Shown here: positions 945 to 61,023 of the stretch, piece after piece
How positions within the stretch are numbered: the first letter of the stretch is position 1
How the letters are laid out: the number at the start of each line of letters is the position of its first letter
The notes under the pieces: model-generated
The model's input: only the letters and a program-made list of their open reading frames with translations
Told to the model about the DNA's origin: nothing
Database searches by the model: none
Translations under genes and position numbers: made by a program
NCBI GenBank assembly: GCA_947475245.1
Contig: CANJLW010000003.1
Location: 287,511-351,510, forward strand
DNA length: 64,000 nucleotides
Direction: 5' to 3'
DNA from: Acetobacteraceae bacterium
GTDB lineage: Bacteria > Pseudomonadota > Alphaproteobacteria > Acetobacterales > Acetobacteraceae

Positions 945-1196
945 TCATGCGTCCTTTGCTTCGTCCGGCTCCGGCCGGCGGCGGATCACGAAGCTGAACA
1001 CGCCGCTTTCCTCGCTCCATGCCAGCAGCGCGTGGCCGGTTTCCCGACAGAACGCCTGAAAATCGGCCACCGCCGCGCGGTCGGTGGCCAGCACGCGCAG
1101 TCGCTCACCCGGCGCCATGCCGCGCAGCGAACGGTTCGCGCGCAGCACGGGCAACGGGCAGTTCATGCCCTTCACGTCCAATAAGGTCTCGCTCAT
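945..1196 (-). CDS. TusA-family sulfurtransferase/redox protein
   Basis: An 83-aa protein starting MSETLLDVKGMNCPLPVL, with the family CPxP motif (Cys13-Pro-Leu-Pro16) near the N-terminus followed by the two-layer alpha/beta SirA/TusA fold. TusA-like proteins carry persulfide on this cysteine for tRNA thiolation, molybdenum cofactor or sulfur-oxidation pathways; no neighbour shows which applies here. The open frame extends further upstream, but the family motif begins right after the ATG at 1196, so the short start is chosen. It leads an apparent two-gene operon with the HDAC-like gene and is divergent from the ROK kinase, leaving 79 bp for both promoters. Confidence 0.85.
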   Translation of the reverse strand: MSETLLDVKGMNCPLPVLRANRSLRGMAPGERLRVLATDRAAVADFQAFCRETGHALLAWSEESGVFSFVIRRRPEPDEAKDA

Positions 1197-1275
1197 GCCC
1201 CTATCCTGGGGACATGACGTGCGCGCGGCAACCCGCTTTTTGACCGACAGGGGGTATTCGCGCCATCCTGCCGGC

Positions 1276-2175
1276 ATGAGCAAACATCGCATCGGTATCG
1301 ATCTGGGCGGCACGAAGATCGAAATCGCCGTTCTGGCGCCTGACGGGAACGAGGTCCTGCGCCGGCGTGTCCCAACGCCCAAGGCCTATCCCGACGCGCT
1401 GGCGGCGATCGCCGGCCTTGTGACGGACGCGGAGGCCACTCTCGGCGTCACCGCCACCGTCGGCATCGGCATCCCCGGCGTGATCAGCCCGGCCACGGGA
1501 TTGGTGAAGAACGCGAATTCCATCGCGCTGAACGGGCATCGCTTCGATCTGGATATCGCCGAAGCGCTGAGGCGCGAAGTGCGCGTCGAGAACGACGCCA
1601 ATTGCTTTGCGTTGAGCGAGGCGGTGGACGGCGCCGGTGCCGGCCATGGCGTGGTGTTCGGCGTGATCCTGGGCACCGGCTGCGGCGGCGGGATCGTGAT
1701 CAACGGTCAGGTCCATCGCGGGCCGCATCGGATCGCCGCCGAATGGGGCCATAACCCGCTGCCGTGGCAAACGCCGGAGGAATATCCTGGCAACCTCTGC
1801 TGGTGCGGCCTGCGCGGTTGCCTGGAAACCTACGTCGCCGGCCCCTCTCTGGCACGCGACTGCGACGGGCCGGAGGCACGCGACGCCAGCGCTTTCCCGG
1901 CGCGGGCCGCCGCGGGGGACGAACGCGCGCGGGCGGCGTTGGAACGCCACGCCGATCGTCTGGCGCGCGGGCTGGCACAGGTCATCAACCTGCTCGATCC
2001 CGATGCCATCGTTCTCGGCGGCGGGCTGTCGAACATGGCGCATCTGTATGTGGAGTTGCCGCGATTGCTGCCGCGCCACGTCTTCAGCGACACCATCACC
2101 ACGCCGATCGTCAAGAACAAGCACGGCGATTCGTCGGGGGTACGCGGCGCTGCCTGGCTTTGGCCCGCGACCTGA
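1276..2175 (+). CDS. ROK family sugar kinase (fructokinase/N-acetylhexosamine kinase-like)
   Basis: A 299-aa cytoplasmic kinase phosphorylating a free hexose, probably fructose or an N-acetylhexosamine. The ATP-binding phosphate loop DLGGTK lies at residues 9-14, the catalytic aspartate is Asp107 in ENDANC, and the ROK zinc site is His159 plus Cys175, Cys177 and Cys182 (CWCGLRGC). The substrate-facing EWGH motif is intact. The frame is open back to 1084, but MSKHRIGIDLGG at 1276 matches the family start; the upstream part overlaps the divergent tusA-like gene. No HTH domain is present, so it is a kinase rather than a ROK repressor. No sugar transporter is adjacent. Confidence 0.9.
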   Translation: MSKHRIGIDLGGTKIEIAVLAPDGNEVLRRRVPTPKAYPDALAAIAGLVTDAEATLGVTATVGIGIPGVISPATGLVKNANSIALNGHRFDLDIAEALRREVRVENDANCFALSEAVDGAGAGHGVVFGVILGTGCGGGIVINGQVHRGPHRIAAEWGHNPLPWQTPEEYPGNLCWCGLRGCLETYVAGPSLARDCDGPEARDASAFPARAAAGDERARAALERHADRLARGLAQVINLLDPDAIVLGGGLSNMAHLYVELPRLLPRHVFSDTITTPIVKNKHGDSSGVRGAAWLWPAT

Positions 2176-21001: not shown

Positions 21002-21024
21002 GTCGGTCCCCTGAGGAAGTTGTC

Positions 21025-22434
21025 GTGAGCGTTACCCGTCGCACCGAACCCTGTCCAGACGCCGTTTCCGTCTGGTTGTACGGCTTTGTCTGGTTCGCCA
21101 CCCTGGCGGACCAATGTTTGACCTGGCCGCCGTTGGGACACGCGGCGGGCATTGCGATCCTGGGGTTCCTGTTGCTCCAGTTCCCGCGCCAGCGATCCTA
21201 CGTCCGAGCCTTGTTCGTCGGCCTGTCCGGCATCGGTCTGGCGGGCGTCGTCTTCTCCGCCGATCCGCTCGGCTTGTTTCTGGAAGGCTGGCGGCGAGGC
21301 GCGGTCTATGCCGCTTTTTTCCTCGCTTTATCGTCGTTGCGCGACGCGGCGGAGACCAGCCGTCTGGTGCGGCGCTGCGGGCAGCACCTTGTGGCGCAAC
21401 CGCCGGGACGGCGCTATGCCGCGCTTACCGGCGGCGGACATCTGTTCGGTATCATATTGTCCTATGGCGCGATCGAACTGCTGGGCGCGATGGTCATGCG
21501 CGCCGGCGGGCGGAGCGCGACCGAGAATGGTCGGCGCATGATGATGGCGATCTATCGCGGCTTCTGCGTGATGAACTGCTGGAGTCCGCTGAATCTGATG
21601 ACGGCGGTGGTGACGACCGCGGTGCCCGCGGCACCCATGCAGCGCCTGTTGCCCATCGCGTTCGTCGTCTCGATCGTAATTGCGGCCATTGGTTGGTTGG
21701 AAGATAGGCTGGCGTGGCGGCAAACCGGCGTGACCACGCGCACGACGGAACGCTGGACCGTTCACCTCCGCATCGTCGCCCTGGTCGCGCTGGTCATGCT
21801 CGGCGCGGAGACGATCAGTTGGCTGTTCGGCGTCGGTTTGGTCGCCTCCGTGACACTGGCGGTGCCGTCGATTGCCCTGGCCTGGGCGGTGGCGCAGACC
21901 GGACCGCGGACTCCGGGCTGGGCAATCGCGGTGATCCGTCGCCGTGTCGCCCGGTTCATGCGACGCGTGCCGAGTTTCCGGGGAGAGGCGACGGTGCTGT
22001 CCTGTTCCGGATTCATGGGGGTTGCGGCGGTCGGCGTGTTACCGGTCGACGGCATCGCGCCGTGGCTGACGCATATGCCGCCCGTGCTGGTCCCGCTGCT
22101 GGTTCCGGTGTTGCTGATCCTGACCGGCCAGATCGGTCTGAACCCGGTCGCGATCGTCGCCTTGCTGGGGGCCGCGATGCCCGATCCCGCGCGCCTCGGC
22201 GTCCCTCCCGCCGCCCTGGCGTTTGCCTGCATGGTCGGCTGGGGTCTTGGCGTAGGGATGACACCGATGTCCGCCTCCGCCATCACGACGGCGCGGTGGG
22301 CGGGCGCTTCGCCGTGGACGGTTGGATCGGCGTGGAACATCCGCTTTACCCTCGCGGCCCTGGTGTTTGCCTGGGCCGCGATCGGGGTGGTGTTTGTCTG
22401 CTTCGCCGGTGCTGCTCAAACAGCGGTGCCGTAG
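21025..22434 (+). CDS. Polytopic inner-membrane protein, transporter-like
   Basis: A 469-aa integral membrane protein with about ten to twelve hydrophobic segments, including [25 protein letters not shown] and [19 protein letters not shown]. Two conserved-looking loops, [18 protein letters not shown] and [17 protein letters not shown], resemble re-entrant, small-residue-rich loops of ion-transporter-superfamily carriers such as citrate, C4-dicarboxylate or gluconate permeases; no family is claimed. The start is GTG at 21025 behind TGAGGAAG. Its 3' end overlaps the convergent hyuAB gene by 19 bp. A carrier for the hydantoinase substrate would be a natural guess but convergent orientation gives no support. 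Confidence 0.75.
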
Positions 22435-44328: not shown

Positions 44329-45495
44329 TCAATAGCTGCGCGGCATGCCCAACACGTGTTCGGCGACGTATGACAGGATCAGATTGGTGCTGATCGGCGC
44401 CACCTGATACAGCCGGGTCTCCCGGAATTTCCGCTCGATGTCGTACTCCTCGGCAAAGCCGAAACCGCCATGGGTCTGAATACAGGCCTCCCCGGCGGCC
44501 CAGGACGCCTCGGCGGCCAGCATTTTAGCGATATTGGCTTCCTCGCCCGGGGTCTGTCCGGCCTCGAACTTCGCCAGCCCCGCATGCACCATCATTTCCG
44601 CCGCCCGCATCTGCGCGTAGGCGCGCGCGATCGGGAACTGAATGCCCTGGTTCTGCCCGATCGGTCGACCGAACACCTGACGTTCCCTTGCGTAGTCAGA
44701 CGCCTTTTTGATGAACCACTTGGCATCGCCGATGCACTCCGCCGCGATCAGCAGGCGTTCGGCGTTCATGCCGTCCAGGATATAGCGGAACCCGCGACCT
44801 TCCACGCCGACCAGGTTCTCCGCCGGCACGATCATGTTGTCGAAGAAAACCTCGGTGGAGTTATGGTTCATCATCGTGCGGATCGGTCGGATCGTCAGAC
44901 CCTTACCCAGGCTCGCCTGCATATCGACGATGAACGTCGACAACCCATCGGTCTTTTTCGCCGCCTGATCCTTCGGAGTCGTCCTCGCCAACAACAACAT
45001 CAAATCCGAATGTTCCGCTCGGCTCGTCCAGACCTTCTGGCCGTTGACGACGTAATGGTCGCCCTCTCGGCGCGCGAAGGTGCGCAGCGATGTCGTGTCG
45101 GTGCCGCTGGTCGGCTCGGTCACGCCGAAGGCCTGCAGGCGCAGCTCGCCGGTCGCGATCTTCGGCAGATAGGTCTGCTTCTGCTTGTCGGTGCCGTGCC
45201 GCAGGATGGTGCCCATGATGTACATCTGGGCGTGACAGGCCGCGCCGTTGCACCCCTCTGCCTGCACAGTCTCCAGAATTGCCGCCGCGGCCGACAGCGG
45301 CAGGCCCGCGCCGCCGAATTCCTCGGGGATCAAGGCGCCGAGGTAGCCGCCTTCGGTCAATGCCCGCACGAACGCCGTCGGATATTCGCGGTCGGCGTCG
45401 AGCTTGCGCCAATATTCGCCGGGGAACTTCGCGCAGAGCTTCGCGACCTCCTGACGGATTTCGGTATGAGGGTCGACGAGCTGGGGCTGGTCCAT
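44329..45495 (-). CDS. Acyl-CoA dehydrogenase family flavoenzyme
   Basis: A 388-aa acyl-CoA dehydrogenase of typical size. Landmarks include AFGVTEPTSGTDTTSLRTFA (flavin- and substrate-binding) and IQTHGGFGFAEEYDIERKFRE near the C-terminus, which contacts FAD. The catalytic base position varies in the family and is not assigned here. It oxidises an acyl-CoA, possibly a dicarboxylic or aromatic-derived one since it converges on the box operon. It has its own start 5' of GATTCGCATGG and no co-transcribed partner. Confidence 0.9.
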   Translation of the reverse strand: MDQPQLVDPHTEIRQEVAKLCAKFPGEYWRKLDADREYPTAFVRALTEGGYLGALIPEEFGGAGLPLSAAAAILETVQAEGCNGAACHAQMYIMGTILRHGTDKQKQTYLPKIATGELRLQAFGVTEPTSGTDTTSLRTFARREGDHYVVNGQKVWTSRAEHSDLMLLLARTTPKDQAAKKTDGLSTFIVDMQASLGKGLTIRPIRTMMNHNSTEVFFDNMIVPAENLVGVEGRGFRYILDGMNAERLLIAAECIGDAKWFIKKASDYARERQVFGRPIGQNQGIQFPIARAYAQMRAAEMMVHAGLAKFEAGQTPGEEANIAKMLAAEASWAAGEACIQTHGGFGFAEEYDIERKFRETRLYQVAPISTNLILSYVAEHVLGMPRSY

Positions 45496-56014: not shown

Positions 56015-56935
56015 ATGGGCCGGCCGCCGACCAAAACGCGCTTCCTGACGGAGCGTATCGCCCTGGCGAAGCTGATCGACGCCGCCTTGACCAAAGGGCA
56101 GCGCGCCACCGGCGAAAAGGGGCAGCCCTGGACCAACATGGGCTTCGCCGAGAAAATCGGCGCCAGCGCATCCAGCGTCGCCGAATGGCGTGACACCGCC
56201 AATCCCGCCCGCCCCGGCAATATCGTGCCGCTGCTGAACGCCTTCTTTGGCACCATCCCGGCCTATGCCGACGACAAAGCCGCCATGCTCAAGGCCTGGA
56301 AGCGCGCCGGCGGCATCGACTCCGACGACCCGCCCGACCCCCGCGCCATTCAGGCCGAGCAGTTCAGTGAGGTTGCGCAGGTGGTGTCGCTGCTGATCAA
56401 TCAGCCGACGCCCGATAATCAGGGCAACCTGAAAGTGCCCTATACGCTTCACCTCCGCTGCCACGAGAGCCTTGCGATCCCGATCGTCGTCAATAAGCGA
56501 CCGGTGACCGTCACGCTGGATATCGGCCTGACCGCGCCCCTGTTCGCGGTGGAATCGAAGCACTGGAATCCCGTGCAGGACAGCATCTTCCGCAAGCGTA
56601 AACACCCGAACCTTGCCAATCCCTTCAACGATTCGGTGCGGCTGATCGGCCCAACCGACAACCACAGCCGGATCGTCGGCGAACCGCTGGAAGACGAAAC
56701 CCACGTCCTGATGGAACCCTCCGGCGCCGCGCAGGACGACGGCCCGATCACCCTGCTCGTCAAGTCGCCGCGCGACGGCATCAGCGTTACCTTGGCCGAC
56801 GGGGCCGAACTGTCCGCCACCCAGCGCGACGTGATCGACGCGCTGTTCGCCTCCGCCATTCCCCGCGACGCCGCCAACCGGCTGGAAGTCGCCCGCGCCA
56901 CCATTTCCCCCAAAGCCGGGAAACCCTCGCAATGA
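56015..56935 (+). CDS. HTH-domain protein of the double-FGE operon
   Basis: A 306-aa protein. Residues about 10-70 look like an XRE-type helix-turn-helix domain (LIDAALTKGQR...NMGFAEKIGASASSVAEWRD, with the QxSxS-like recognition part SASSVAEWRD). The remaining 230 residues form an unrecognised beta-rich domain (TLHLRCHESLAIPIVVNKR, VTLDIGLTAPLF). It is likely a regulator or a sensor that shares its operon with the double-FGE protein, whose ATG overlaps its stop (ATGA). ACGGAGAA lies before its own ATG. HTH proteins beside FGE-domain genes are known in conflict and retroelement contexts, by general recollection. Confidence 0.7.
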   Translation: MGRPPTKTRFLTERIALAKLIDAALTKGQRATGEKGQPWTNMGFAEKIGASASSVAEWRDTANPARPGNIVPLLNAFFGTIPAYADDKAAMLKAWKRAGGIDSDDPPDPRAIQAEQFSEVAQVVSLLINQPTPDNQGNLKVPYTLHLRCHESLAIPIVVNKRPVTVTLDIGLTAPLFAVESKHWNPVQDSIFRKRKHPNLANPFNDSVRLIGPTDNHSRIVGEPLEDETHVLMEPSGAAQDDGPITLLVKSPRDGISVTLADGAELSATQRDVIDALFASAIPRDAANRLEVARATISPKAGKPSQ

Positions 56936-59148
56936 GCCTGACCCAGGACCACCTGCGCCGCATCGCCCATGTCGCCCATGCGCGCGATCTGGGGTTCGTG
57001 GACCTTGTCGGGCTGGCGCAACTCGACCCGGCGCAGGCGTTTCGCGGCGCGGTTCTGCGCGGCGACTTAAGCAATCAGGATTTGCGCGGCTTCGACCTGA
57101 CCGGGGCGATTTTCCAGGGCTGCGACCTGTCCGGCACCGATCTGTCCGCCACGACGGGCGTGACGGAGGCAATGCTGGACTCCGCCATCTGGACCGAGGC
57201 CACCATCCTGCCGTTCTGGGCCACGGGCACGCCGCCGTCCTGGGCGCACGACTGGGGCCGCGACGCGTTCGGCGCCTGGGTCAGCTTTCGCATCCCCTTC
57301 ACGCAGGTCGAGCAGCGCATGCGCTGGTGCCCGCCCGGCGACTTCCTGATGGGATCGCCGCCCGACGACCCGGAGGCGCGCGACGATGAACGGCCGCAGC
57401 ATCGGGTGACCCTGGTGCGCGGGTTCTGGATGTTTGAGACGGTGTGTACCGAGGCTCTGTGGACCGCTGTCACCGGCGAACCGCCGCGGCTCCAGCGCGG
57501 TGACAGGTTCCCGGCGACCGGTGTCAGTTGGGATGACGCCCAGGACTTCATCCGCCGCCTCAACACGATCTTGCCCGGCATCGCGCTCGGCCTGCCGAGC
57601 GAGGCGCGATGGGAATATGCGTGTCGTGCCGGCACGACGACGCGGTTCAGCTTTGGCGACACGATCGGGAAGGATCAGGTTTGCTACGGCGGCGGCGGCG
57701 GCCCGGTCGAGGTCGGCAGCCTGCCGGCGAATCCGTGGGGCCTGCGGGAGATGCACGGCAATGTCGAGGAATGGTGCGAGGATCGGTGGCATGACAGCTA
57801 CGCCGACGCCCCCGCGGACGGCACGGCCCGCGGCGGTGCCGCGTACCGCGTGCTGCGCGGCGGGTCCTGGTTCTACGTCGCGCGCCTCGCGCGCTCGGCG
57901 CACCGCGAGGGCTACGCCCCGTCGGACCGCCCCGGCAGCGTCGGCTTTCGCTGTGCCCGAGTTCAGCGAGCGGAAGAAGCGGAGCAGGCGGCGGTGCCGT
58001 CGGCCCTGGCGAGTCGGGGGAAAAGCGCGGAGCGCCCCCGGCCGCAAGGGCCGACGAGCGCCGCCGTCCTGCGCCGCGTGGGCGACACGGCGGATAACCC
58101 GCTCCCCCTCATCCCCCCGACAATCGTCCGCGCAAATCGGGTGGATCTGACTGCCCCTGTCCCACCCAAACCGGACTGGGCCTCCGCAATCGGCCGCGAC
58201 GGCTTCGGGCTGTTCACCGTCTTCACCGTCCCGGATACAGAGGTCACCCAACGCATGCGCTGGATCCCGCCCGGTCGCTTCTGGATGGGCTCGCCGGATG
58301 ACGAACCAGGCCGGTTCGGGAATGAAGGCCCTCGGCATCTGGTGACCCTGGAACACGGCTTCTGGCTGTTCGACACACCGTGTACCCAGGCGCTATGGCA
58401 TTCCGTGATGGGCAATAACCCCAGCTACTTCAAAACGCCCAACCGGCCGGTCGACAGCGTGTCTTTCAACGACGCCCTGGACTTTATCGGCAAGCTCAAT
58501 AGCCGCGTCGACGGCCTGGACCTGACCCTGCCGTCGGAGGCCGAGTGGGAATATGCCTGCCGCGCCGGCACCGAAGACGCAACCTATGCCGGCCCCATCA
58601 CGATCCTGGGGGAGAACAACGCGCCGGTGCTGGACCCCATCGCCTGGTACGGTGGCAACAGCGGCCGCGATTTCGACCTGGACAATGGACATGACGTCAG
58701 CAATTGGCCTGAAAGGCAGTATGACGATCCGCGTGCCGGGACCCGGATCGTGGGACAGAAGGCAGCGAACGGCTGGGGATTGTACGATATGTTGGGCAAT
58801 GTCTGGGAATGGTGCGAGGATCGCTACCACAAAGACTACGACGGCGCCCCGGTGAACGGCATGCCCAGGCGCGACGACGGTGGGTCCGCTGCCGCGCGCC
58901 GCGTGCTGCGCGGCGGGTCCTGGTTCAGCGACGCGCGCCACGCGCGCTCGGCGAGCCGCGACGACCCCGACCCGTCGCGCCGCCACGACGGCCTCGGCTT
59001 TCGCTGTGCCCGAGTTCAGCGAGCCGGCGGAGCGGCAGCGAAGGGCGGGGAGGAGCAAGCGTCGGGAGCGGAGCGAGCAGCGGCGACGACCAGCCCGAAG
59101 CGGACGCGCAGCAAGCGGCAAGCACCACTCCCTTTAAAGCGCACGTGA
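56932..59148 (+). CDS. Pentapeptide-repeat protein with two FGE/C-type-lectin-fold domains and two DGR-like variable regions
   Basis: A 738-aa protein with no signal peptide. A short pentapeptide-repeat segment (about residues 37-72; AVLRGDLSNQDLRGFDLTGA) is followed by FGE domain 1 (about 119-347) and FGE domain 2 (about 410-698), joined by a low-complexity linker and ending in a basic tail. Each FGE domain has PPG.F.MGSP, a central LPSEA(R/E)WEYACRAGT and a C-terminal RVLRGGSW...GFRCARVQRA. The last 134 bp of both domains (57838-57971 and 58891-59024) are identical but for 19 bases in 14 codons, while the rest of the domains differ. Lectin-like FGE domains are the usual targets of diversity-generating retroelements, where they display variable residues on a ligand-binding face. 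Confidence 0.85.
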   Translation: MSLTQDHLRRIAHVAHARDLGFVDLVGLAQLDPAQAFRGAVLRGDLSNQDLRGFDLTGAIFQGCDLSGTDLSATTGVTEAMLDSAIWTEATILPFWATGTPPSWAHDWGRDAFGAWVSFRIPFTQVEQRMRWCPPGDFLMGSPPDDPEARDDERPQHRVTLVRGFWMFETVCTEALWTAVTGEPPRLQRGDRFPATGVSWDDAQDFIRRLNTILPGIALGLPSEARWEYACRAGTTTRFSFGDTIGKDQVCYGGGGGPVEVGSLPANPWGLREMHGNVEEWCEDRWHDSYADAPADGTARGGAAYRVLRGGSWFYVARLARSAHREGYAPSDRPGSVGFRCARVQRAEEAEQAAVPSALASRGKSAERPRPQGPTSAAVLRRVGDTADNPLPLIPPTIVRANRVDLTAPVPPKPDWASAIGRDGFGLFTVFTVPDTEVTQRMRWIPPGRFWMGSPDDEPGRFGNEGPRHLVTLEHGFWLFDTPCTQALWHSVMGNNPSYFKTPNRPVDSVSFNDALDFIGKLNSRVDGLDLTLPSEAEWEYACRAGTEDATYAGPITILGENNAPVLDPIAWYGGNSGRDFDLDNGHDVSNWPERQYDDPRAGTRIVGQKAANGWGLYDMLGNVWEWCEDRYHKDYDGAPVNGMPRRDDGGSAAARRVLRGGSWFSDARHARSASRDDPDPSRRHDGLGFRCARVQRAGGAAAKGGEEQASGAERAAATTSPKRTRSKRQAPLPLKRT
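57838..57971 (+). repeat. Putative DGR variable region 1 (VR1)
   Basis: Codons 303-347 of the double-FGE gene. Variable codons here read TAC, TAC, GTC, CTC, CAC, GAG, GGC, TAC, GCC, GAC, CCC, GGC, AGC and GTC. All but one end in C, as expected if the template has AAC codons whose adenines are randomised; GAG would come from a GAA. Invariant codons between them contain no adenine. The final 29 bp (57943-57971) are unchanged from VR2 although they contain adenines, matching the initiation-of-mutagenic-homology segment at the 3' end of known VRs. Confidence 0.85.
58891..59024 (+). repeat. Putative DGR variable region 2 (VR2)
   Basis: Codons 654-698 of the same gene, at the C-terminal FGE domain. 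The variable codons read CGC, AGC, GAC, CAC, AGC, GAC, GAC, CCC, GAC, CGC, CAC, GAC, GGC and CTC. Compared with VR1, 115 of 134 bases match; all 19 mismatches fall at sites that one common adenine-containing template explains, and 14 of them have an A in one of the copies. Identity stops abruptly after CAGCGAGC and about one codon before the 5' end, so it is a bounded cassette rather than general domain duplication. Confidence 0.85.
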
Positions 59149-59166: not shown

Positions 59167-60630
59167 CCGCTTCCAACGAAGCGCGGGAGGCGCAGGCGGA
59201 GCCTCGGGTGGGCCGAGCGAGCAGAGGGAGCGGAGGAGACCGCCCGCCCCGCCATGCCGACCGATACGACGGCCAATCAATCGGTCGCCGCCGGCGTATC
59301 AACCGCGATCCGCGCTGATCCGTTCAATCCGCGTCCATCCGCGTTAGTTTTTCTTTGCAAACGGCACCAAGGCAAGCCACTCACCAATGGGGGGACGGAG
59401 CCTGCAAGGAAAAGCAAAAACGCGGATACACGCGGATATAGCAGATAATCGCGGATCGCGGTCGACAGGCCGTTCGCCAAGCTTACGCGCCGTAAGTCGC
59501 CCACCGCCAAACAACCCGCCATCCCCCCCCCTGTGCCACCGGCGGATCAACCACGATCCGCGCTGATCCGTTCAATCCGCGTCCATCCGCGTTAGTCTTT
59601 CTTTACAAACGAAACCAAGGAACGCCACGCGCCATTGGGGGGACATGCGCCTGCAATGAAAAGCAAAAACGCAGATAAACGCGGATATAGCAGATAATCG
59701 CGGATCGCGGCCGACAGGCCGTTCGCCAAACTTACGCCCCGTAAATCGCCCACCGCCAAACAACCCGCCATCCCACCCTGTGCCACCGACCGATCAACCG
59801 CGATCCGCGCTGATCCGTTCAATCCGCGTCCATCCGCGTTAATTTTTCTTACAAACGAAACCAAGGCACGCCACTCACCATTGGGGGGACGGAGCCTGCA
59901 ATGAAAAGCGAAAACGCAGATAAACGCGGATATAACAGATCAGCGCGGATCGCGGCCGACAGGCCGTTCGCCAAGCTTACGCCCCGTGAGTCGCCCACCG
60001 CCAAACAACCCGCCATCCCACCCTATGGCACCGGCGGATCAACCGCGATCCGCGCTGATCCGTTCAATCCGCGTTAGTTTTTATTTACAAACGAAACCAA
60101 GGCACACCACTCGCCATAGGGGACATGCGCCTGCAAGGAAAAGCAAAAACGCAGATAAACGCGGATATAGCAGATCAGCGCGGATCGCGGTCGACAGGCC
60201 GTTCGCCAAGCTTTCGCGCCGTGAGTCGCCCAGCGCCAATCAACCCGCCATCCCATCCCCTGTGCCCCCGGCATATCAACCACGATCCGCGCTGATCCGT
60301 TCAATCCGCGTCCATCCGCGTTAATTTTTCTTTACAAACGGAACCAAGGCACGCCCCGCGCCAGTGGGGGGATGGAGCCTGCAATGAAAAGCAAAAACGC
60401 AGATAAACGCGGATATAGCAGATAATCGCGGATCGCGGTCGACAGGCCGTTCGCCAAACTTACGCGCCGTAAATCGCCCACCGCCAAACAACCCGCCATC
60501 CCACCCTGTGCCACCGACGTATCAACCGCGATCCGCGCTGATCCGTTCAATCCGCGTTAGTCCTTCTTTACAAACGGAACCAAGGCACGCCCCGCACCAG
60601 TGGGAGGATGAGCCCGCGAGGAAAACCAAA
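59149..60630. repeat. Non-coding tandem array of about 5.4 copies of a ~245-bp repeat
   Basis: Copies begin (at ATCAACC) at 59298, 59546, 59793, 60038, 60275 and 60521, with spacings of 248, 247, 245, 237 and 246 bp; the 237 reflects an 11-bp loss of GTCCATCCGCG. Each unit holds two opposed clusters of CGCGGAT-like words, one in each strand, with starts about 10 bp apart (one helical turn). Between them are less conserved stretches. Small ORFs in it are by-products of the repeat. The region from 59149 to about 59290 is GC-rich, unique sequence with no gene seen. Confidence 0.85.
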
Positions 60631-61023
60631 TTAAAGCCCGTTCGCCACACGCCTGATCTCCAGTCGCGCATTGCCGAAGTTCAGCAACAAACACAGCCGA
60701 AGGCCAGTCCCCTTCAGGTAATTGACGCACTGCGCGACATGGGTCGCATCCAATGTTCGGACCGTTTTTATCTCCACCAGCAGCATTCGTTCAACCAGAA
60801 CGTCGGCAAAATACGCGCCGACCACCCTCCCGCCATAGCAAACCGCGATGCCAAATTGCTGTTCCGCCAGACAGCCGGCCTGACGCAGGTCCATGATCAG
60901 GGCATTCTCGTAGACCTTCTCCAAAAACCCGGCGCCGAGTGTATTCAACACATTGAAGGCGCAACCGATGACGACCTCCGTCAATGCGTCCAGCCGCTGA
61001 ATATCGGCGCGTATCGTTTCCAT
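60631..61023 (-). CDS. GxxExxY family protein (PD-(D/E)XK-like fold)
   Basis: A 130-aa member of the GxxExxY family. Gly32-x-x-Glu35-x-x-Tyr38 lies in GAGFLEKVYENAL, and the later ADVLVERMLLVEIKTV gives Asp74, Glu84 and Lys86, the arrangement of the PD-(D/E)XK nuclease superfamily. The family is widespread and of unknown function; many members sit beside repeats of CGCGGAT-like words, as this one does (inference from general recollection). The gene ends inside the last repeat copy and is divergent from the Bug receptor gene. Length is typical. Confidence 0.88.
   Translation of the reverse strand: METIRADIQRLDALTEVVIGCAFNVLNTLGAGFLEKVYENALIMDLRQAGCLAEQQFGIAVCYGGRVVGAYFADVLVERMLLVEIKTVRTLDATHVAQCVNYLKGTGLRLCLLLNFGNARLEIRRVANGL

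Follow-up and report, generated by a model that had tools for sequence, protein, structure and literature searches.

Diversity-generating retroelements (DGRs) that act on several variable repeats (VRs) in the same target ORF have been described before. In the survey of PMC6642488, as far as its available text goes, 31 of 271 DGRs with multiple VRs have several of these in one ORF, as does the gene described here. The available part of PMC10907252 reports for Thiohalocapsa PB-PSB1 that DGR 4 and 5 share one target in which tandem CLec domains carry the variable repeats, that the reverse transcriptase (RT) of DGR 4 and 5 is replaced by MITE-like arrays, and that writing in trans by DGR 2 was inferred; tandem CLec targets are recorded there also for Marichromatium and a Chromatiales contig. 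According to the same portion of that paper, the PB-PSB1 system differs from ours in belonging to a VMAP ternary system with vWA plus three CLec domains, in having a matching template elsewhere in the genome, and in showing variation in the population. A second close counterpart is the DGR of Treponema denticola (PMC4891356, available text), a spirochete, unlike the host of our sequence. Its variable protein TvpA (2y3c) is an FGE-type C-type lectin, its accessory gene is of the HRDC kind, its targets can be remote, and some isolates keep target genes without complete DGRs. In the accessible parts of further papers, HRDC is given as a known DGR accessory (PMC10053308), a large DGR survey states that remote targets would escape it (PMC8144416), and FGE-type DGR targets, some with TIR or vWA, are proposed as sensors or effectors of conflict systems (PMC10907252, PMC7159879). 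Because several VRs in one ORF, tandem CLec targets, remote targets and HRDC have all been published, the kind of system is known; what is reported here is taken as a new instance of it, in its lineage, in the pentapeptide-FGE-FGE form of the target and in having a TIR-FGE co-target. A literature search joining diversity-generating retroelements with Acetobacteraceae found no paper.

The target gene and its two repeats

The window, that is, the whole stretch of 64,000 nucleotides that was analysed, lies at the end of contig C3 of a 5.23-Mb draft genome (89 contigs, 99.14% complete), referred to here as the source genome. It contains the following features.

56015..56935 (+), gene upstream of the target, 306 aa, with a stop that overlaps the start of the target gene
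56932..59148 (+), candidate DGR target gene, 738-aa ORF; pentapeptide repeats in the N-terminal region, followed by two domains of the FGE-sulfatase kind (C-type-lectin fold)
57235..57966 (+), first FGE domain, about aa 102-345, with VR1 at its end (Pfam and domain alignment)
57838..57966 (+), variable repeat 1 (VR1), 129 bp; constant 3' end GGC TTT CGC TGT GCC CGA GTT CAG
58171..59019 (+), second FGE domain, about aa 414-696, with VR2 at its end (Pfam and domain alignment)
58891..59019 (+), variable repeat 2 (VR2), 129 bp; constant 3' end identical to that of VR1
59287..60630 (+), MITE-like tandem array; units of about 248 bp to 60557, period-483 reading to 60630 (TRF)

Pfam analysis of the target gene detected FGE-sulfatase in two stretches (E 1.1e-82) together with Pentapeptide. 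The top Foldseek matches of the protein included PvdO (5hha) and Treponema denticola variable protein 1 (2y3c), a result that confirms the FGE fold and nothing further. The predicted structure had a mean pLDDT of 72.4 with values below 50 in parts of both repeats, and the model is therefore uninformative on binding faces or on the placing of varied residues. T. denticola TvpA has one variable region per protein. The upstream gene had no match in Pfam or NCBIfam; a short N-terminal stretch of it resembled the gene upstream of the target in G009, a relative of the same genus (29% over 86 columns, E 1e-7).

A preliminary description of this DNA had proposed, from the letters alone, that the ends of two FGE domains in one gene are DGR variable regions. 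When 57838-57971 was compared again with 58891-59024 (both +), its counts were reproduced: 115 of 134 positions were identical, the 19 differences were spread over 14 codons, and in 13 of the 14 differing pairs both codons ended in C, GAG/GAC being the sole exception. As it had also stated, invariant codons were free of adenine (21 identical codons in the first 105 bases), and both repeats terminated FGE domains within one gene, the ORF of 738 aa listed above. The identical 3' run, given as 29 bases, was found to be 31 bases long. Its statement that silent sites are conserved was borne out as well. Third-codon-position identity of the two domains was 0.98 in the repeat and 0.52 outside, and among codons for the same residue, 29 of 29 were identical inside the repeat, compared with 60 of 102 outside. 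This pattern of identity is far beyond chance.

Related loci with template and reverse transcriptase

When 145 genomes were searched at 1e-8, the repeat was present in 13, the source genome among them. A complete DGR, in which RT, adenine-rich template, variable repeats and an accessory HRDC gene lie together, was found on contig C15 (L077) of G009, where the upstream gene and the double-FGE gene, which bears both repeats, are followed in turn by the HRDC gene, the YMDD RT and the template. The window gene and the double-repeat gene of G009 aligned from residue 1 with 53% identity, and in both orthologous targets each of the two FGE domains ends in a variable repeat. Directly downstream, however, the two loci part: HRDC, RT and template follow the target in G009, whereas the MITE-like array follows it in the window. 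The best match of the G009 RT among solved sequences was 8ub7 (1.5e-35), which we take to be the Bordetella phage BPP-1 DGR RT complex. The G009 repeats differed from their own template at 18 and 16 positions, of which 16 and 14 were at adenines and the other two, in each repeat, in the 3' end. The DGR reading of the preliminary description thus gained support from within the genus, where an ortholog of the window gene, likewise with two repeats, lies beside HRDC, a DGR-type RT and a template rich in adenine.

The same plan was read by eye on a Magnetospira contig and a Chromatiaceae contig, in each of which a tandem-FGE target is accompanied by RT and template and by a further target with a single FGE domain. 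Differences from the template fell on adenine at 12/13, 11/14 and 14/16 positions in the Magnetospira repeats and at 14/16, 14/17 and 14/16 in the three Chromatiaceae repeats (L126). A template was also present in G027, beside an RT lying in two frames, and the repeats of this genome were mostly on other contigs; here, adenines accounted for 15/23 and 15/22 differences in the two closest repeats and for 18-22 of 37-39 in the other three. In Rhodanobacteraceae (L128), the values were 18/28 and 17/25. Three of the five G027 repeats and L128 fit the adenine pattern more poorly than the other relatives do. In G059, a truncated template-like copy was found right after the double-FGE gene (L076 7663-7777), and its contig had no match to the RT profile.

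The fetched loci yielded 51 non-redundant copies, 10 of them template-like (16-26 core adenines) and 41 variable (3-13). Four of the 10 template-like copies belong to another template type. This second type in the genus (L181 666-769, L107, L108 and L182) has a 3' end with GCCAG.ACGCCTCCATGCC, and RTs with YVDDF lie beside it in L107 and L108.

The closest repeat outside the source genome (85%) was on contig C60 of G007, a genome of the same genus. A template on C157 of G007 was ruled out as the cognate of that genome's four repeats, its 3' end and codons being of another type, and an RT of another type was split in two, each piece close to the end of a different contig. In the 9-contig genome G137, contig C1 (L078, L187) carried four variable repeats, none template-like, and the single RT-profile match, an ORF at L186 6002-7360, did not look like a DGR RT when read by eye; the G137 repeats are possibly a frozen set.

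A family-wide search of 397 genomes, in which two candidates per genome were scored, gave 9 genomes with matches at 1e-10, including the source genome. When seven family loci were re-extracted in search of a closer template, two held a repeat and five had no match to the pattern; with 6 and 12 core adenines, neither of the two repeats is template-like. The exact repeat pattern was carried by none of the viral contigs searched, and the viral search returned one locus with an RT relative (34%). Matches to the G009 RT were found in 132 plasmid records, every one below 60% identity. The top-ranked match had 34.5% identity over 92%, and the highest among the 20 listed had 38.3% over 57%. A single plasmid record matched the repeat (74%).

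Four repeats in the source genome and the search for their writer

The whole source assembly was searched with either repeat (best 40 of 93 and best 40 of 158 candidates scored), and four strong matches were obtained, both window repeats plus one place each on C8, at 44986-45129 (-), and on C18, at 21002-21132 (-). The next-best matches to the window repeats were less than 40 bases long. The C8 repeat lies in the gene of a 393-aa pentapeptide-FGE protein and the C18 repeat in that of a 460-aa TIR_2-FGE protein. With PADLOC, the window target gene and the C8 gene had no match, and the C18 gene had two weak matches in its TIR region (E about 3e-4). Genes of the GxxExxY family (TIGR04256) were seen near two of the three repeat-bearing genes, at 60631-61023 (-) in the window and at 948-1328 (+) in the C18 stretch (L005), which may be coincidence.

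When the four repeats were aligned, they had their constant codons in common and varied at the same codons. Among 129 columns, 28 were variable, with 12, 13 and 3 at codon positions 1, 2 and 3. The variable columns were compared with template adenines by proxy, the templates of G009, Magnetospira and G027 serving as rulers. Of the 28, 21 coincided with adenines in the G009 template, which has 25 in all (P 1.6e-14), 21 with adenines in that of Magnetospira, which has 24 (P 2.7e-15), and 20 with adenines in that of G027, which has 26 (P 3.2e-12); these hypergeometric P values assume that columns are independent. The coincidence with adenines in foreign templates supports the earlier DGR reading. 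Taken together, the three templates covered 25 of the 28 columns and left over columns 63, 71 and 86; at column 63, the four repeats had four different bases. Column 128 is adenine only in the G027 template, whose end is shifted there. Template adenines that were invariant in the source genome numbered 4 of 25 (G009), 3 of 24 (Magnetospira) and 6 of 26 (G027). Across the six domain pairs, third-position identity was 93-98% inside the repeats and 38-52% outside, and identical codons for the same residue amounted to 28-30 of 29-33 inside compared with 41-68 of 69-118 outside. Because the variable columns lie on template adenines and silent sites are conserved, the four repeats are regarded as DGR variable repeats.

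All four source-genome copies were also of the variable class by their 75-bp core, with 6-11 adenines. At column 124, a template C was opposed to a repeat T in 8 of 8 template-repeat pairs from G009, Magnetospira and L126 (the template ends of G027 and G059 deviate otherwise). All four source-genome copies have T at this column, which suggests that they have the variable (IMH) and not the template (IMH*) 3' end.

The preliminary description had named an RT and a template as the things to look for; both are present in related genomes, but neither a DGR RT nor a template was found in the source assembly, in searches for which very short fragments of either are below detection. The PF00078 profile found one RT in the assembly, on C46. 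The G009 RT had no match at 1e-10, and a profile of three RTs, run with an E limit of 10, found the C46 RT only. This protein scored 375 bits with TIGR04416, group II intron RT (cut-off 300), and was flanked on either side by Rfam group II intron elements. As a group II intron RT lying between intron RNA domains, it was ruled out as the writer. On C46 (L001 1156-2523 and 3010-3681), it is located just downstream of an FGE gene whose best NCBIfam match was PvdO, below cut-off, and which had no match to the variable repeat. The G009 template matched the four variable copies and, over 53 bases each, C64 and C1. The G009 HRDC protein, searched with an E limit of 1, matched nothing in the window and nothing in the surroundings of the C8 and C18 repeats (14-kb stretches L120 and L121). 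When the G009 RT was compared by tblastn with the window and with the surroundings of these two repeats, a single 33-residue match in the C8 stretch was obtained (E 0.27), which was taken as chance.

The MITE-like array occupies the place of HRDC, RT and template in G009. It has inverted arms of up to 59 nt, and one unit had a strong fold (z -6.2). Partial matches of less than 90 bp were found on seven other source-genome contigs, and because related repeats thus lie elsewhere in the genome too, we go no further than to infer that the array may have displaced the writer next to the window gene.

The fate of the presumed writer and the possible meaning of the repeats

Taken together, these data suggest, at a probability of roughly 0.93, that the two variable repeats of the window gene were written by a DGR. 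In the mechanism envisaged, an error-prone RT would copy one shared template repeat, template adenines would be randomised during copying, and the copy would overwrite each FGE domain at its 3' end. One template probably served all four source-genome repeats, in which case at least those of C8 and C18 would have been written in trans. An RT and template beside the window gene, acting in cis, would since have been lost, with the MITE-like array now in their place. The products may be binding proteins or sensors with varied ligand-facing residues, one of them fused to TIR.

Under this explanation, the writer is either unassembled or unbinned, or it is gone. The first state, in which RT and template reside on a missing plasmid, prophage or contig and act in trans on the four repeats, comes close to an even chance in our estimation. 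The source genome is a draft in 89 contigs, the split RT of G007 near contig ends indicates that such loci can be lost in assembly, and action in trans was inferred for Thiohalocapsa PB-PSB1 in the available text of PMC10907252. The four repeats also show little drift. The third-position share of variable columns, counted over two to four repeats per genome and five in G027, was 0/10 in G009 and 1/20 in Magnetospira, both with RT and template; 3/28 in the source genome and 5/30 in G007; and 8/37 in G137 and 11/28 in G008, in neither of which a writer of this type was detected. G027, with a template and a broken RT, had 11/46 over its five repeats, so the order of drift does not strictly follow the presence of a writer. 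Given the few third-position variable columns, the source genome by its look was recently written. Against an unassembled writer stand the completeness of the assembly (99.14%), the failure to find in it any piece of RT or template long enough to be detected, the low identity of the plasmid matches, and the absence of the exact repeat pattern from the viral contigs searched.

The second state, in which a DGR wrote all four repeats, RT and template were then lost, and the binding surfaces are now fixed, is plausible but tentative, at somewhat less than even odds. It accords with the failure to find RT and template in the source assembly and with the array at the relative's HRDC-RT-template place, as in PB-PSB1 DGR 4 and 5 (PMC10907252, available text). 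G137, with four repeats in only 9 contigs, no template-like copy and an RT match not of DGR type by eye, would be a parallel case. In addition, the C18 protein cluster consisted of one sequence on 10 contigs, which argues against present diversification there, provided that the contigs are independent; the C8 cluster comprised four sequences on six contigs, and that of the window gene two sequences on one contig. The small third-position drift, when set against that of G137 and G008, speaks against long-frozen repeats, and any loss of the writer would be recent. A broader form of the idea we consider unlikely at present. In it, the genome would hold a writer-less repertoire, with four freshly diversified binding surfaces distributed over a tandem-FGE, a single-FGE and a TIR-FGE protein and with no RT or template of its own, because the DGR writer would come and go in the population, having given way to a MITE-like array here and persisting in relatives; hypermutation would then be followed by fixation of chosen variants.

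Gene conversion can affect the 3' ends of paralogs. Ordinary duplication of the FGE domain with positive selection, or conversion between paralogs, in either case without reverse transcription, is nevertheless very improbable: the two FGE domains are indeed paralogs, but silent sites have hardly changed within the repeats and have diverged strongly beyond them, the variable positions fall on adenines in the templates of other genomes, and repeats of the same kind adjoin RT and template in relatives.

With writing by a DGR as the favoured explanation, the window gene adds a clean tandem-repeat DGR target in Acetobacteraceae. A single template of the G009/Magnetospira type would have served TIR-fused, single-FGE and tandem-FGE proteins at three loci, a target set that fits the published idea of DGR targets as conflict-system sensors. 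The differing drift in relatives with and without a writer would offer a way to study hypermutated proteins after loss of the mutator.
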